Source: Spiroplasma phoeniceum
Lineage (GTDB): Bacteria > Bacillota_I > Bacilli_A > Mycoplasmatales > Mycoplasmataceae
Assembly (NCBI GenBank): GCA_026239495.1
Contig: CP110830.1
Location: 1,674,001-1,738,000 of the forward strand
Reading direction: 5' to 3'
DNA: 64,000 bases
Shown here piece after piece: positions 1 to 23,671 of the stretch. How positions within the stretch are numbered: the stretch's first letter is position 1; each line of letters starts with the position of its first letter. A program made the translations under genes and the position numbers. The notes below the pieces were generated by a model. That model was not told where the DNA came from and searched no databases. It saw only the letters and a program-made list of their open reading frames with translations.

Positions 1-562
1 CCTTAACGTAATTACTACCATTAGAACCCTTTCCATCAGAACTAGACTTATTAATATGAGAAGCTGATTGTAAATTTTGATCTCTAAACCAATCATTGAC
101 AATTTGAGTATAAGCTCGAAATGGTAAAGCATTAACCTCTGGGCCTTATTTATTAACAGGTAAGCCCATATAATCGGCAATAGTTCCAACTTTTCAACCC
201 CCATCACTAGGGGCCTTAACAATAGGAATTAAAACATCATCCGTAACAGCTCAAGGATCATTATTTTCAACAAAAAACTTTTTAAAATCATCCCAAATAA
301 TTCTATTTGGCACAAAAAAAAGCAAAAACATCAATATTAGCAACATCCATAACTGGCCTATTCATAGTCGTCTGACGAACTAAAGCTTTAACATCCATCT
401 TAACATTATCACCGGGCAAAATCTCATCCAAATAAATAGGAACCAAATCACCAGCATTAAAAGCAGTAGTAAGTTGACTATTTCTTGTAAATACAGAATG
501 CTGTGGCGACCTATCTAAAGCAGTCTGAAAACCATAAACTAATTTATTTTTTTTTCATTTTT
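1..562 (-). pseudogene. Microvirus (SpV4/gokushovirus-type) major capsid protein VP1, N-terminal part, broken
   Basis: Read right to left with TGA as Trp, this encodes the N-terminal third of a Microviridae major capsid protein. Recognisable blocks in order are ALDRSPQHSVFTRN, VPIYLDEILPGDNVKMD, a FAFFVPNRIIWDDFKKFF-like segment and RAYTQIVNDWFRDQNLQ. The order and wording match what I recall of gokushovirus VP1 (jelly-roll capsid; Spiroplasma phage SpV4 is the classical mollicute member). Three lesions break it: an A9 run just after the ATG (one base too many), a T8 run near 310-320 (one too many), and an in-frame TAA at about 147-149. The gene continues beyond the left window edge. It follows the scaffold-like gene directly, as VP3 and VP1 neighbour each other in these phages. 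Confidence 0.82.
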
Positions 563-1009
563 ATTTTCTCCTTTATCGTTTAACTCAAATTTATTCTTAC
601 CATCATTAACATCTAAAACAATTTGATTATCTAAATCATCTTTTTTCTCTTTTTCATTAACGGTATTTAAAGACCTTAAATAATCATTAATAACATCTAA
701 ATTATCAATATTTTTTAACAAATTTAAAGTCTCCACGGCAGAACTTGGTAGCTCAGATAAATCTAAATATTGACCTTGTCTAAAGTTAAAATCTACAAAT
801 TCACCGGATTCATATTTATCAATAAGTTCTTGTAAAGTAGTACCAATTCCAGCTTCTTGTATTTCGTTATATAAATCTAAAACCTTATTAACTATTAAAG
901 AAACTTCTCCGGTGTTTTTATTAACAACTCTTTCATATACATTATATAAAGAATCACCAGAAACAGATGAATCAGAAACATTATTATATTCACTATAAAT
1001 CTTTCTCAT
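539..1009 (-). CDS. Microvirus internal scaffolding protein (VP3-like)
   Basis: 156 residues, intact, acidic and lysine rich, with no membrane segment. The N-terminal half contains NTGEVSLIVNKVLDLYNEI and GIGTTLQELIDKYESGEF, followed by SSAVETLNLLKNIDNL. This resembles the gokushovirus internal scaffold layout, in which a TGEV-type motif is followed by a short helical region. The C-terminal 40 residues are low complexity (Lys, Asp, Asn). It sits immediately upstream of the capsid remnant in the same orientation, and position supports the assignment more than sequence does. Family knowledge: VP3 helps procapsid assembly and is absent from mature virions. Alternative: an unrelated small phage protein. 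Confidence 0.62.
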   Translation of the reverse strand: MRKIYSEYNNVSDSSVSGDSLYNVYERVVNKNTGEVSLIVNKVLDLYNEIQEAGIGTTLQELIDKYESGEFVDFNFRQGQYLDLSELPSSAVETLNLLKNIDNLDVINDYLRSLNTVNEKEKKDDLDNQIVLDVNDGKNKFELNDKGENKNEKKIN

Positions 1010-1100
1010 CTTCTATTTCCTTTCCTTTTTTTTCTTGTTCTTTAAATCAAGACAAATAACCATGATCATTTAAATAATCTTTTAACTTATCTAAATGATT
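1010..1100 (-). pseudogene. Fragment of a small phage-associated ORF
   Basis: Between the scaffold-like gene and the membrane protein, one minus-strand frame reads LKDYLNDHGYLSWFKEQ without a start codon and runs out of frame into the scaffold gene. It looks like the tail of another small microvirus gene whose 5' part is lost or frameshifted. I do not recognise a family. Confidence 0.35.
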
Positions 1101-1325
1101 CTAAACATTTTTATTATGCACTTTAATATATCTTATGGTTTCAATAACTGAAATAACAATTTCAGAAACAATAAGAATAACAGATATAACAATATATTCT
1201 GGCCAATTAATATTTAAATATTTACGACCAATAAAACATATTACAGTTCCACTTATAAAAAATAATGATGAAATTCCAAAGATTTTCAAAAAAATAATTA
1301 AATATTTAATAGTTAATTTTGACAT
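1101..1325 (-). CDS. Small membrane protein next to the microvirus remnant
   Basis: 74 residues from the ATG at 1325 (MSKLTIKYLIIFLK). That start is preferred over an upstream one because AAAGGA precedes it at normal spacing. Two hydrophobic segments are visible, at about residues 8-30 and 38-60, separated by a short basic stretch (IGRKYLN); the C-terminus is basic. I do not recognise a family. Its position beside capsid and scaffold genes suggests a phage protein, for example one acting on the membrane at lysis or extrusion, but that is inference. It could also be a host gene fragment. Confidence 0.5.
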   Translation of the reverse strand: MSKLTIKYLIIFLKIFGISSLFFISGTVICFIGRKYLNINWPEYIVISVILIVSEIVISVIETIRYIKVHNKNV

Positions 1326-1432
1326 AAAAAAATCCTTTCTTAAAATAAATTGAAATAAGAAAGGAGTATATGTGCAATATACCAAGGTAAAGGAATTAGT
1401 ACAGGTAATTCCTTTCTCATTTCATTAATCAT

Positions 1433-2042
1433 TAGACTTATTGCATAACCTAATCTAATTATTTTAAAATTACTATAAAATATTTTTAAATTAAAATATA
1501 AATTATAGGAGATTAAAATTATGAAATTTGATAAATTTAATTTTATTAATGATAAAGAATGATTAAGATTAACAGGAATAAAACAAGATATTTTTAATAA
1601 AATGTTAGATATTTTACAAGTAGCTGAAATAGAAAAATTTAAAAAAGGCGGCAAAACTAATAAATTATCACTAGAAAACCGGCCACTGATGACTTTATCG
1701 TATTGACGAGAATATCGGACTTATTTTCATCTTGCTAAAAGTTTTGATATTAGTGAATCTAGTTGTTATCGCAATATCAAGTGAATTGAAGATATTTTAA
1801 TTAAACACTATGATTTTCAACAACTAGCTGGTAAAAAATATCTAATAAATGATTATTTTAATGATAAGATTATTATTGATGTTAGCGAAACCCCAATCCA
1901 ACGCCCAAAAAAAGCCAAAAATAATCTTATTCTGGCAAAAAGAAAAAAAACACCATTAAAACACAAGTAATTATCGAACAAGAAACCAAAAAAATTATTG
2001 CAACAAGTTTTTCGCTTGGAAAAAACATAATTATGCTTTATT
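1433..2042 (+). mobile_element. IS5-family element copy A, 5' part (outer element of the nest)
   Basis: Begins with TAGACTTATTGCATAACC, then an AT-rich leader, GGAG and a transposase start (MKFDKFNFINDKEWLRLTG). The reading frame is damaged (a VSET variant replaces the usual DATET, and indels are present). It stops at 2042 where copy B begins. The missing 3' half resumes at 4187, so the two parts are one element split by later insertions. This subtype has a left end different from copies B, C and D. Confidence 0.85.
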
Positions 2043-3088
2043 AGACTTCTTGCATAACCCATTAAAATAATTTCAAATATTTGTAAAAAGGGGTTAATAT
2101 AAAATTATAATTTTAATTAATTATGTCTTTTATTTAAAAATTTAATATTTTGCCACAACGAAAAATTATTTTATTATTCAAATTTGTTAATTTTAAATAA
2201 ATCTTTTATGATAACTATAATAATTGTAAATTATAAATTGAAGCAATTAAATTAAATCTTAAACTAAATCGTTTTCTACGATTTCTATATTTTTCTGTAA
2301 TAATTTTAAATTTTTTAAGAATAGCAAAAATATTTTCAATAATAATTCTTATTTTTGAAACTATTCTATTATGTTGTTTTTGTTCTTTATTTAAATGTTT
2401 TTTCTTAGTTTTCTTTGTGGGCATTATAACATTATTGTGAATTTTTTGTATTCCTTGATAACCACTATCAACTATTAATTTGGTATTTTTTAAAATTGCG
2501 ATTTTTGATTCTTTAAATAAAGCATAATCGTGTTTTTTACCAAGTGAAAAACTTGTTGCAATAATTTTTTTGGTTTCTTGTTCGATAATTACTTGTGTTT
2601 TAATAGTGTGTTTTTTCTTTTTACCAGAATAAGATTGTTTTTGTCTTTTTTTGGGCGTTGGATTGGGGTTTCGGTAGCATCAATAATAATAGTTTTATCA
2701 TTAAAATAATCATTTATTAGTGCTTTTTTACCAGCAACTTGCTGAAAATCAGGGTGTTTAATTAAAATATCTTCAATTCACTTGATATTGCGATAACAAT
2801 TAGCTTCACTAATTCCGAAATTTTTTCCAAGATGAAAATAAGTTCGATATTCTCGTCAATACGATAAAGTCATCAATAATCGATTTTCTAGTGATAATTT
2901 ATTAGCTTTGCCACCTTTTTTAAATTTTTCTATTTCAGCTACTTGTAAAATATCTAACATTTTATTAAAAATATCTTGTTTTATTCCTGTTAATCTTAAT
3001 CATTCTTTATCATTAATATTTTTAAATTCATCAAATTTCATAATTTAATATTCTCATAAATTATATTTTATAATAATATTTTAACAAT
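2043..3088 (-). mobile_element. IS5-family element copy B (inserted in A; interrupted by C)
   Basis: Right terminus AGACTTCTTGCATAACCC at 2043, with the transposase on the minus strand. The left terminus is cut at 3088 by copy C, and the last ~27 bases of B (AAACCAGGTATCGCAAGAAG and so on) lie beyond C at 4160-4186. ATT flanks B on both sides in copy A, a 3-bp target duplication. Length without C is about 1.07 kb, the same as copies C and D. Confidence 0.88.
2215..3041 (-). CDS. IS5-family transposase, two overlapping frames (copy B)
   Basis: First frame from the ATG at 3041 to the stop at 2589 (150 residues, MKFDEFKNINDKEWLRLTG), with a helix-turn-helix-like N-terminal half and the first catalytic Asp in IIIDATETPIQRP. 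The second frame is -1, runs on to 2215 and carries the second Asp (LIVDSGYQG) and the Glu (IRIIIENIFAILKK), completing a DDE site of about 275 residues. A run of seven A residues just after PIQRP is where the frames join. Both frames are intact, so the product is probably made by -1 frameshifting. Encoded only with TGA as Trp. Confidence 0.85.
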
Positions 3089-4158
3089 AGACTTCTTGCA
3101 TAACCCATTAAAATAATTTCAAATATTTGTAAAAAGGGGTTAATATAAAATTATAATTTTAATTAATTATGTCTTTTATTTAAAAATTTAATATTTTGCC
3201 ACAACGAAAAATTATTTTATTATTCAAATTCGTTAATTTTAAATAAATCTTTTATGATAACTATAATAATTGTAAATTATAAATTGAAGCAATTAAATTA
3301 AATCTTAAACTAAATCGTTTTCTACGATTTCTATATTTTTCTGTAATAATTTTAAATTTTTTAAGAATAGCAAAAATATTTTCAATAATAATTCTTATTT
3401 TTGAAACTAGTCTATTATGTTGTTTTTGTTCTTTATTTAAATGTTTTTTCTTAGTTTTCTTTGTGGGCATTATAACATTATTGTGAATTTTTTGTATTCC
3501 TTGATAACCACTATCAACTATTAATTTGGTATTTTTTAAAATTGCGATTTTTGATTCTTTAAATAAAGCATAATCGTGTTTTTTACCAAGTGAAAAACTT
3601 GTTGCAATAATTTTTTTGGTTTCTTGTTCGATAATTACTTGTGTTTTAATAGTGTGTTTTTTCTTTTTACCAGAATAAGATTGTTTTTGTCTTTTTTTGG
3701 GCGTTGGATTGGGGTTTCGCTAGCATCAATAATAATAGTTTTATCATTAAAATAATCATTTATTAGTGCTTTTTTACCAGCAACTTGCTGAAAATCAGGG
3801 TGTTTAATTAAAATATCTTCAATTCACTTGATATTGCGATAACAATTAGCTTCACTAATTCCGAAATTTTTTCCAAGATGAAAATAAGTTCGATATTCTC
3901 GTCAATACGATAAAGTCATCAATAATCGATTTTCTAGTGATAATTTATTAGCTTTGCCACCTTTTTTAAATTTTTCTATTTCAGCTACTTGTAAAATATC
4001 TAACATTTTATTAAAAATATCTTGTTTTATTCCTGTTAATCTTAATCATTCTTTATCATTAATATTTTTAAATTCATCAAATTTCATAATTTAATATCCT
4101 CATAAATTATATTTTATAATAATATTTTAATAATAAAACCAGGTATCGCAAGAAGTCT
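3089..4158 (-). mobile_element. IS5-family element copy C (inserted near the left end of B)
   Basis: Complete 1070-bp element bounded by AGACTTCTTGCATAACCC and GGTATCGCAAGAAGTCT, flanked by AAT on both sides (3-bp target duplication in B). The imperfect inverted repeats share AGACTTCTTGC. It is nearly identical to B and D, which indicates recent transposition. Confidence 0.92.
3261..4087 (-). CDS. IS5-family transposase, two overlapping frames (copy C)
   Basis: Same organisation as copy B: first frame 4087-3635, second frame ending at 3261, joined by -1 slippage at an A7 run. One difference is IDASETP instead of IDATETP beside the first catalytic Asp. The catalytic Asp and Glu of the second frame are present. 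No stops interrupt either frame, so this copy may be active. Confidence 0.85.
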
Positions 4159-4159
4159 A

Positions 4160-4186
4160 ATAAAACCAGGTATCGCAAGAAGTCTA
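4160..4186 (-). mobile_element. Detached left terminus of IS copy B
   Basis: A second tandem copy of AAAACCAGGTATCGCAAGAA plus GTCTA directly after copy C. It is the outermost 27 bases of B, separated from its body by C. It explains why two identical IS ends stand side by side here. Confidence 0.85.
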
Positions 4187-4648
4187 TTTAAAGAATCAAA
4201 AATATCAATTTTAAAAAATACCAAATTAATAGTTGATAGTGGTTATCAAGGAATTCAAAAAATTCACAATAATGTTCTAATACCTACAAAAAAACAAAGA
4301 AAAACCCTTTAAATAAAGTACAAAAACAACGTAATAGAATAGTTTCAAAAATGAGAATTATTATTGAAAATATTTTTGCTATTCTTAAAAAATTTAAAAT
4401 TATTACAGAAAAATATCGTAATCAAAGAAAACGATTTAGTTTAAGATTTAATTTAATTGCTTCAATTTATAACTTGCAGTTAGCATAGAATATTTATTTA
4501 AAATTAAAGAATTTAAATAATAAATTCATTTTTTATTGTGGCAAAATATTAAATTTTTAAATAAAAAAATTAATTAAAATTATATTTTTCTATTAGTGTT
4601 TTTTTTACAAATATTTGCAATTTTTTAATAGTTTACGCAAGAAGTCTA
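4187..4648 (+). mobile_element. IS5-family element copy A, 3' part
   Basis: Resumes the transposase of copy A exactly where it was cut (TTTAAAGAATCAAAAA), with LIVDSGYQGIQKIHNNV and the terminal LRFNLIASIYNLQL segment. Frameshifts and a stop (AACCCTTTAAAT) break the frame. It ends in GTTTACGCAAGAAGTCTA at 4648. Copy A is therefore a dead element that served as the landing site for B and C. Confidence 0.85.
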
Positions 4649-4711: not shown

Positions 4712-5781
4712 AGACTTCTTGCGATACCTGGTTTTATTATTAAAATATTATTATAAAATATAATTTATGAGGATATTAAATTATGAAATTTGATGAATTT
4801 AAAAATATTAATGATAAAGAATGATTAAGATTAACAGGAATAAAACAAGATATTTTTAATAAAATGTTAGATATTTTACAAGTAGCTGAAATAGAAAAAT
4901 TTAAAAAAGGTGGCAAAGCTAATAAATTATCACTAGAAAATCGATTATTGATGACTTTATCGTATTGACGAGAATATCGAACTTATTTTCATCTTGGAAA
5001 AAATTTCGGAATTAGTGAAGCTAATTGTTATCGCAATATCAAGTGAATTGAAGATATTTTAATTAAACACCCTGATTTTCAGCAAGTTGCTGGTAAAAAA
5101 GCACTAATAAATGATTATTTTAATGATAAAACTATTATTATTGATGCCACCGAAACCCCAATCCAACGCCCAAAAAAAGACAAAAACAATCTTATTCTGG
5201 TAAAAAGAAAAAACACACTATTAAAACACAAGTAATTATCGAACAAGAAACCAAAAAAATTATTGCAACAAGTTTTTCACTTGGTAAAAAACACGATTAT
5301 GATTTATTTAAAGAATCAAAAATCGCAATTTTAAAAAATACCAAATTAATAGTTGATAGTGGTTATCAAGGAATACAAAAAATTCACAATAATGTTATAA
5401 TGCCCACAAAGAAAACTAAGAAAAAACATTTAAATAAAGAACAAAAACAACATAATAGACTAGTTTCAAAAATAAGAATTATTATTGAAAATATTTTTGC
5501 TATTCTTAAAAAATTTAAAATTATTACAGAAAAATATAGAAATCGTAGAAAACGATTTAGTTTAAGATTTAATTTAATTGCTTCAATTTATAATTTACAA
5601 TTATTATAGTTATCATAAAAGATTTATTTAAAATTAACGAATTTGAATAATAAAATAATTTTTCGTTGTGGCAAAATATTAAATTTTTAAATAAAAAACA
5701 TAATTAATTAAAATTATATTTTTCTATTAACCCCTTTTTACAAATATTTGAAATTATTTTAATGGGTTATGCAAGAAGTCT
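4712..5781 (+). mobile_element. Complete IS5-family element copy D
   Basis: 1070 bp from AGACTTCTTGCGATACCTGG to GGGTTATGCAAGAAGTCT, flanked by direct AAT repeats (4709-4711 and 5782-5784). It contains one intact two-frame transposase on the plus strand and is practically identical to copies B and C. Duplication of A-N-T, the DDE spacing and the -1 frameshift organisation fit the IS5 family (ISL2/IS1031-like), assigned from memory. Confidence 0.93.
4783..5609 (+). CDS. IS5-family transposase, two overlapping frames (copy D)
   Basis: orfA 4783-5235 (150 residues) begins MKFDEFKNINDKEWL and holds the DNA-binding half (FHLGKNFGISEANCYRNIKW, an HTH pattern) and the first catalytic Asp (IIIDATETP). 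In orfA frame the next codons are CCA AAA AAA GAC; slipping back one base on AAAAAAA gives RQKQSYSGKKKKHTIKTQ and continues through SLGKKHDYDLFKES, IVDSGYQG and IIENIFAILKK to the stop at 5609. The fused protein is about 275 residues. GAGG precedes the ATG. Transposes the element by DDE chemistry. Confidence 0.87.
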
Positions 5782-23533: not shown

Positions 23534-23556
23534 AAATTCACCCTTATCATAAAAAA

Positions 23557-23636
23557 TGTCATTACACATAATCCTTAGTCTTATGGCTGCTACCTTCCGG
23601 CCCTGACCAATTTCAAATGTAACTATTGTAATGACA
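23557..23636 (-). ncRNA. ffs: Signal recognition particle 4.5S RNA (bacterial small SRP RNA)
   Basis: The minus strand contains GGTCAGGGCCGGAAGGTAGC and then AGCCATAA, the conserved SRP domain IV with its GGAA loop and asymmetric internal loop. The outer bases TGTCATTACA and TGTAATGACA pair to close the stem, giving ends at 23557 and 23636 (80 nt). It binds Ffh to target nascent membrane proteins to the translocon. Confidence 0.96.
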
Positions 23637-23671
23637 TAAGTAATTATAGCATAAAATTTTATTTTGCATAT

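Follow-up and report, generated by a model that had tools for sequence, protein, structure and literature searches.

The window analysed here is a 64,000-nucleotide stretch (G000:C1:1674001-1738000) of the Spiroplasma phoeniceum genome (G000), a single contig of 2,179,570 bp in which UGA is read as Trp. Its left edge cuts through a decayed provirus of an SpV4-like gokushovirus (copy 1), which is full-length, occupies 4,571 bp on the minus strand (G000:C1:1670863-1675433, or L006:4864-9434) and has its right-hand third at window positions 1-1433. Because the trinucleotide AAT is repeated at both ends of copy 1, the corresponding phage circle is 4,568 bp. The genes in this third are all on the minus strand, and include the N-terminal part of the major capsid gene VP1 (1-558), which runs leftward to about G000:C1:1672889, and the internal scaffolding gene VP3 (539-1009), which lies just upstream of VP1. 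The start of VP3 is overlapped by a small membrane-protein gene (993-1325) that has a TAG at about 1101 and, as judged by eye, two hydrophobic stretches. Upstream of this gene is non-coding phage DNA (1326-1433) that matches an unbroken region of a related provirus in another genome (G307), and that contains a small inverted repeat near 1391-1417, also recognised by eye. The last phage base is 1433, and an insertion sequence (IS) begins at 1434. Beyond the left edge of the window VP1 continues to its end, and VP2, VP4, a J-like gene and a second small membrane-protein gene come next; a hairpin that resembles a terminator (judged by eye) precedes a further IS. Read in the direction of the phage, copy 1 thus runs from its non-coding start through the membrane-protein gene, VP3, VP1, VP2, VP4, the J-like gene and the second membrane-protein gene to the hairpin. 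Elsewhere in the window, a bacterial small SRP RNA (23550-23640, minus strand) is the sole Rfam match at the gathering threshold.

VP1 of copy 1 is matched by the Phage_F family (PF02305) in two segments of the minus strand, G000:C1:1672898-1674340 (E 6.3e-125) and G000:C1:1674312-1674500 (E 8.5e-15), and a 209-aa C-terminal piece of VP1 searched alone matches the same family with an E-value of 6.2e-58. VP3 matches Chlamy_scaf (PF09675) at 31.2 bits against a cut-off of 25 (E 2.8e-07). VP2 and VP4 were identified by PHROGs on the intact proteins of G307, which were then used in tblastn searches of the copies, while the J-like basic protein, for which there was no PHROG match, was named by eye from its likeness to an SpV4 frame. 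An earlier note, made from the window alone, had proposed an SpV4-like microvirus in a Spiroplasma chromosome with a scaffold-like gene and capsid gene in viral order, and had suggested a protein search, a tree with SpV4 and a reading of the DNA to the left. The protein matches and the gene order given above agree with that proposal, as does a quick tree of VP1 (79 rows) that places copy 1, a second copy in the same genome, G307 and SpV4 in one group with an SH-aLRT value of 99, with long branches on SpV4 and several other rows. The DNA to the left does hold the pilot (VP2) and replication (VP4) genes and the gene for the J-like basic protein. The term remnant used in that note was apt with regard to decay; it understated the content of the locus, as copy 1 has every gene seen in the intact G307 phage, several of them broken.

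The three small capsid lesions that the earlier note had described were all found. The A-run at the VP1 start has one A too many (547-555), a T-run near 309-321 has gained a T, and a TAA lies at 146-148. Over its whole length VP1 of copy 1 has two homopolymer frameshifts and three TAA codons (reference residues 137, 262 and 527), VP2 has one frameshift, and VP4 has two stops (residues 124 and 266) and one frameshift. By hand count there are ten lesions in the approximately 3.4 kb made up of the membrane-protein gene, VP1, VP2 and VP4. With its genes decayed in this way, copy 1 is not free phage DNA, and the stops and frameshifts in VP1 and VP4, together with the frameshift in VP2, led to rejection of an active prophage. 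Still intact are the genes for the J-like protein and the second small membrane protein, and also VP3, which was correctly recognised from the window alone as one open frame (156 aa). The further suggestion that the integration may be recent did not hold up. At the lesion density of copy 1 the chance of VP3 staying intact is p ~0.25, so an inference of a recent event from the VP3 frame fails, and selection keeping VP3 was rejected on the same ground; moreover, the right flanking IS of copy 1 has itself been interrupted by two further ISs. Nothing in the analysis points to a function of copy 1 in the host.

The elements that flank phage DNA in this genome belong to the IS5 family (PF13613, PF13359), of which the genome carries approximately 400-480 copies or fragments in two subfamilies, including ISs nested in ISs. 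The right flank of copy 1 is a subfamily-A element on the plus strand, with its 5′ part at 1434-2042 (5′ end facing the phage; PF13613 in the frame at 1521-1967) and its 3′ part at 4186-4646, where the outer flank is AAT. Between these parts lie two nested subfamily-B elements on the minus strand (2043-4185), the outer one at 2043-3088 and 4159-4185 and the inner one at 3089-4158. The inner element and a further IS at 4712-5781 have AAT on each side, and the latter is 91.5% identical over its length to an IS on a Spiroplasma poulsonii plasmid. All four ISs that touch phage DNA in this genome are of subfamily A and are 94-97% identical to a reference (the reference being the fourth), ends included. 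Full-length ISs elsewhere in the vicinity of copy 1 are of subfamily B, and among the subfamily-typed IS ends of the genome (5′ ends with no more than two mismatches) there are 167 of subfamily A versus 310 of subfamily B, or about one third A. At both ends copy 1 meets its ISs at one and the same AAT of the circle, and AAT is found at both outer flanks too. Taken singly, each of the two flanking ISs has different sequences on its two sides, as would be predicted if both had taken part in a joint event. AAT/ATT is, however, common in the phage circle, with 416 sites.

The second provirus (copy 2, L007:6478-10489) lies 1.1 Mb from copy 1 and is truncated: an IS within VP3 marks its start, and its other end falls at the phage position where copy 1 also stops. 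The two copies are 90.6% identical over 3,986 aligned bases. Stops in copy 2 are found at reference residues 257 and 334 of VP1, 15 of VP4 and 49 of VP3, and its VP1 also has out-of-frame stops between two frameshifts (residues 85-117); no stop codon is common to the two copies. In a comparison of 1,021 codons, in which gapped codons were skipped and 31 codons with several changes were excluded, 86 of the 196 single-change codons differ synonymously. Simulations of random mutation with the observed spectrum gave a neutral expectation of 44.9 on average and 64 at most, and none of 2000 reached 86. Most of the differences between the copies thus arose in live phages, under purifying selection, and the synonymous excess and the lack of a common stop codon indicate that copies 1 and 2 are probably two integrations of live phages.

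That copy 2 is instead a duplicate of an already dead copy 1, and that there was a single integration, is improbable. A common origin would account for the identical phage position at which both copies stop at their 3′ ends and for the extra A that both have at the VP1 start, where nine A's follow the start codon (copy 1: window 547-558), one beyond the frame. This common run may reflect parallel slippage, an assembly error or transcriptional slippage, as long homopolymers could gain bases independently. Both copies also have an extra T near VP1 codon 79, but the insertions are in different T-runs, and the ISs at the common 3′ end are oppositely oriented in copies 1 and 2; together with the clear synonymous excess and the stop codons private to each copy, these differences argue against duplication. 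The IS to the right of copy 2 lies within a fragment (L007:11567-11800) from the 5′ part of a gene that looks photolyase-like by eye. A longer, open copy of this gene is found approximately 9 kb to the left of the fragment (L007:1511-2806), and a 251-aa frame beside this gene is partly repeated too. Copy 2 therefore seems to be flanked by direct repeats of host DNA.

An intact relative is found in G307, a 1.33-Mb genome of another family of the same order. The SpV4-like provirus of G307 (L028:1321-7773) has intact genes except for an IS-broken VP3, and encodes VP1 (559 aa), VP2 (143 aa), VP4 (316 aa), a membrane protein (119 aa), a J-like protein and a second membrane protein in a complete circle of approximately 4.3 kb. 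The provirus sits between two IS30-type copies in the same orientation, the right-hand one with HTH_38 and rve domains, and at least 41 full-length copies of this element, nearly identical to one another, are present in the genome. The inner flanks of the IS pair, inside VP3, read AGA/AGA (a 3-bp duplication), and removal of one AGA restores a continuous VP3 frame, which shows that in G307 an IS broke open an entire phage circle. The outer 3-mers of the pair differ (AAA versus TAT). Matching 3-mers were present at three of eight IS30-type copies checked in G307, and the right phage-flanking copy is among the five that lack them. We infer that the same IS family then joined the opened circle to the chromosome. 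This intact copy could be an assembly artefact. The opening points of the two phages are distinct: copy 1 is unbroken in VP3, where G307 was opened, and G307 is unbroken at the intergenic site where copy 1 was opened.

VP1 of G307 is 73% identical to that of copy 1 and 71% to that of copy 2 (546 codons), and 48% identical to VP1 of SpV4. When compared by sequence with solved capsids, it gave good matches to two microvirus capsids, 9cgm ('Capsid protein VP1', E 2.6e-167), which we take to be SpV4, and 8des (E 7.7e-110), with a weak match to 1kvp (E 4.1e-09), which is named as the SpV4 capsid protein. SpV4 itself is recorded as a free phage with a circle of 4,421 bp, in contrast to the two integrated and decayed copies described here. 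Its record annotates VP1 only; with the frames as read, its circular order of J-like gene, membrane-protein gene, VP3, VP1, VP2 and VP4 is the order found here.

Among 14 genomes of the genus, S. phoeniceum is the sole one with a Phage_F match, and none of 14 well-known control genomes has one. Across 320 genomes of the order, Phage_F and the VP4 of G307 each match six, and the union is seven genomes (G000, G223, G261, G275, G307, G308 and G315), of which G000, G307, G308 and G315 are single-contig. G308, from the genus of G307, holds a 1.3-kb fragment (L159:7005-8318) that is 81% identical to the G307 phage; the fragment spans VP4 to the membrane-protein gene, lacks the capsid gene and was accordingly missed by the capsid search. 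In G315 (L029:4270-6424), a C-terminal fragment of VP1 and a VP2-like gene lie directly beside a UPF0236 gene (PF06782), presumably of a transposase-like family, and near this locus is a gene that resembles by eye the guessed portal gene of other phage-like regions. A different gokushovirus is found in G261 (L030:843-10748), on an 11.3-kb contig of a Mycoplasmataceae MAG that also carries a tyrosine recombinase. A search of IMG/VR with the VP1 alignment gave 367 relatives, the highest identity being 50% among the best 80, and so no closer free relative was seen. The VP1 tree used 68 of these 80 viral loci, six without a full VP1, five of 480 aa or less and one SpV4 duplicate having been dropped. 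The same alignment gave five loci in GTDB contigs, all of them on MAG contigs, in a search whose matches include neither G000 nor G307. Viral contigs searched with the 209-aa VP1 piece alone gave two pattern matches and no relative.

The membrane-protein gene that overlaps VP3 was considered as a stray fragment of another phage, and this was rejected since the gene has the same position in G307 and SpV4. In G307 it is intact, and a related frame of SpV4 likewise overlaps the start of VP3; the SpV4 and G307 proteins are 35% identical over 77 residues. Closer kin of the membrane protein (62% identity over 86 residues) are encoded in other phage-like regions of S. phoeniceum and its genus, such as L033:9925-10194 (minus strand) and L020:1026-1331. 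Beside these kin are a possible terminase (PF04466, E 0.0032, below the cut-off) and the guessed portal gene, which has no Pfam match. The protein is found at 14 places in S. phoeniceum, copy 1 included, and, at E<=0.001, in 12 of the 320 genomes of the order (the lowest-scoring of these matches being doubtful), while phage records searched with a 74-aa membrane protein gave no match. As judged from these similarities, a gene swap between ssDNA phages and probably dsDNA phages is likely, and one might guess at a role in lysis, egress or the membrane for phages of wall-less hosts.

With regard to the route by which these phages entered chromosomes, IS-mediated capture is the best-supported mechanism, and we hold it to be somewhat better than an even proposition. 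Host ISs would transpose into the double-stranded replicative form of the phage circle, and IS transposition or recombination between ISs would then join the circle to the chromosome; the provirus would be dead on arrival or soon after, and would decay further under IS bombardment. No integrase was found in the phage. The first step, insertion of an IS into the circle, is directly visible in G307, and the same step is likely in S. phoeniceum, where it is blurred. The ends of copy 1, copy 2 and the G307 provirus all adjoin ISs, with two related ISs around the cargo (junctions read by eye), and this IS-bounded pattern involves elements of two IS families, in hosts from two families of mollicutes. 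For S. phoeniceum, capture is also favoured by the opening of copy 1 at one AAT and by the finding that every IS touching phage DNA is of subfamily A, the less frequent of the two subfamilies. A single IS in the circle followed by homologous recombination is ruled out for copies 1 and 2 by their inverted ISs, and is kept for G307.

Another rare entry, such as illegitimate recombination during rolling-circle replication, followed by late arrival of ISs that trimmed the ends, is a serious rival, and we consider it possible, about half as probable as IS-mediated capture. In a genome with this many IS5-family copies or fragments, and with nested ISs in the window itself, ISs beside a dead provirus are to be expected anyway. 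The flanking IS pairs are inverted, with 5′ halves inward in copy 1 and 3′ halves inward in copy 2, and for copy 1 this means that two insertions at the same AAT, or a later replacement, are needed. Copy 2 was clearly trimmed by the IS inside VP3. Each of its two ISs is bordered by AAT on either side, the pattern expected after a simple later insertion, and in that case the phage end would have been joined to host-like DNA beforehand. The flanks outside both copies read AAT/AAT, yet most of the IS ends inspected are themselves bordered by AAT or ATT. Late trimming would, however, produce the structure of copy 1 by chance only, as copy 1 is exactly one circle, opened at one AAT and with an IS at each end, and G307 displays an IS inserted into a complete circle.

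The remaining alternatives are all improbable. The earlier note had named as a possible source of error an assembly artefact in which free phage DNA is joined to the chromosome, here through shared IS repeats; the junctions do carry ISs, which are assembly repeats, but VP1 and VP4 of both copies contain several stops and frameshifts, which do not fit a replicating phage, and the genome was assembled as a single contig. Misassembly of free phage was rejected for the window copy, whose VP1 and VP4 carry several private lesions. Slightly less probable still is that the provirus has been retained for interference with incoming SpV4-like phages, through its intact scaffold, J-like or membrane proteins. 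VP3, the J-like gene and the second small membrane-protein gene are open in copy 1, and resistance of S. citri to SVTS2 has been associated with integrated SVTS2 sequences (PMC8140453), but an intact VP3 is within chance expectation and VP3 of copy 2 is both cut by an IS and stopped. Least probable of all is XerCD/dif integration, which is the demonstrated route of E. coli gokushovirus prophages (PMC7062461), because no tyrosine recombinase (PF00589) was detected in G000 or G307 at E<=0.001, in contrast to all 14 control genomes, and because the break points differ, in VP3 for G307 and between genes for copy 1.

Integrated microviruses have been described in several other bacteria. The EC6098-type prophages of enterobacteria resemble the proviruses described here in being complete gokushovirus genomes (4.3-4.7 kb) that lie in chromosomes and lack an integrase; they differ in that they are inserted at dif through XerC/XerD (PMC7062461), whereas here no such recombinase was detected and the ends are ISs. 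The microvirus proviruses of Bacteroidetes are distant from gokushoviruses and have a 13-bp att repeat, and XerCD/dif was proposed for them (PMC3091885). Integrated microviruses in Erysipelatoclostridium and Mammaliicoccus sciuri extend these observations to Firmicutes, in hosts other than those considered here (PMC9239249), and gokushovirus contigs were reported with an ant mollicute, with no chromosomal placement (PMC6245734).

The earlier note held that chromosomal microvirus capsid genes are rarely described in Spiroplasma. This fits the literature found, in which one statement on integrated microviruses of spiroplasmas or mollicutes was located, but that statement means that an integrated Spiromicrovirus in Spiroplasma had already been named. 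This source, a 2025 preprint, states that Spiromicrovirus and Plectrovirus prophages outnumber other mobile elements in Spiroplasma glossinidia sGff (PMC12408004). The sGff case is similar to that of S. phoeniceum in that Microviridae are integrated in a Spiroplasma and many ISs are associated with prophage regions. The sGff prophages are PHASTEST calls, compared here by description, and the parts of the preprint seen hold no gene anatomy, junctions or mechanism. A search by titles and abstract openings, mostly outside subscription journals, found no report of IS-mediated capture of a microvirus.

For the biology of these phages, the findings mean that SpV4 gains an intact cousin, in G307, and several fossil ones. 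In the literature found, entry of small ssDNA phages that lack an integrase has so far been explained by the XerCD recombinases of the host. Mollicutes in which such a recombinase was not detected still hold complete microviruses, and the junction in G307 points to transposons as the means of entry. A broader and more tentative proposal, which we regard as less likely than IS-mediated capture itself, is that in Xer-less Mollicutes the host ISs may serve as the lysogeny machinery of integrase-less microviruses by carrying the phage circle into the chromosome, and that IS-bearing phages could in turn ferry ISs between hosts.
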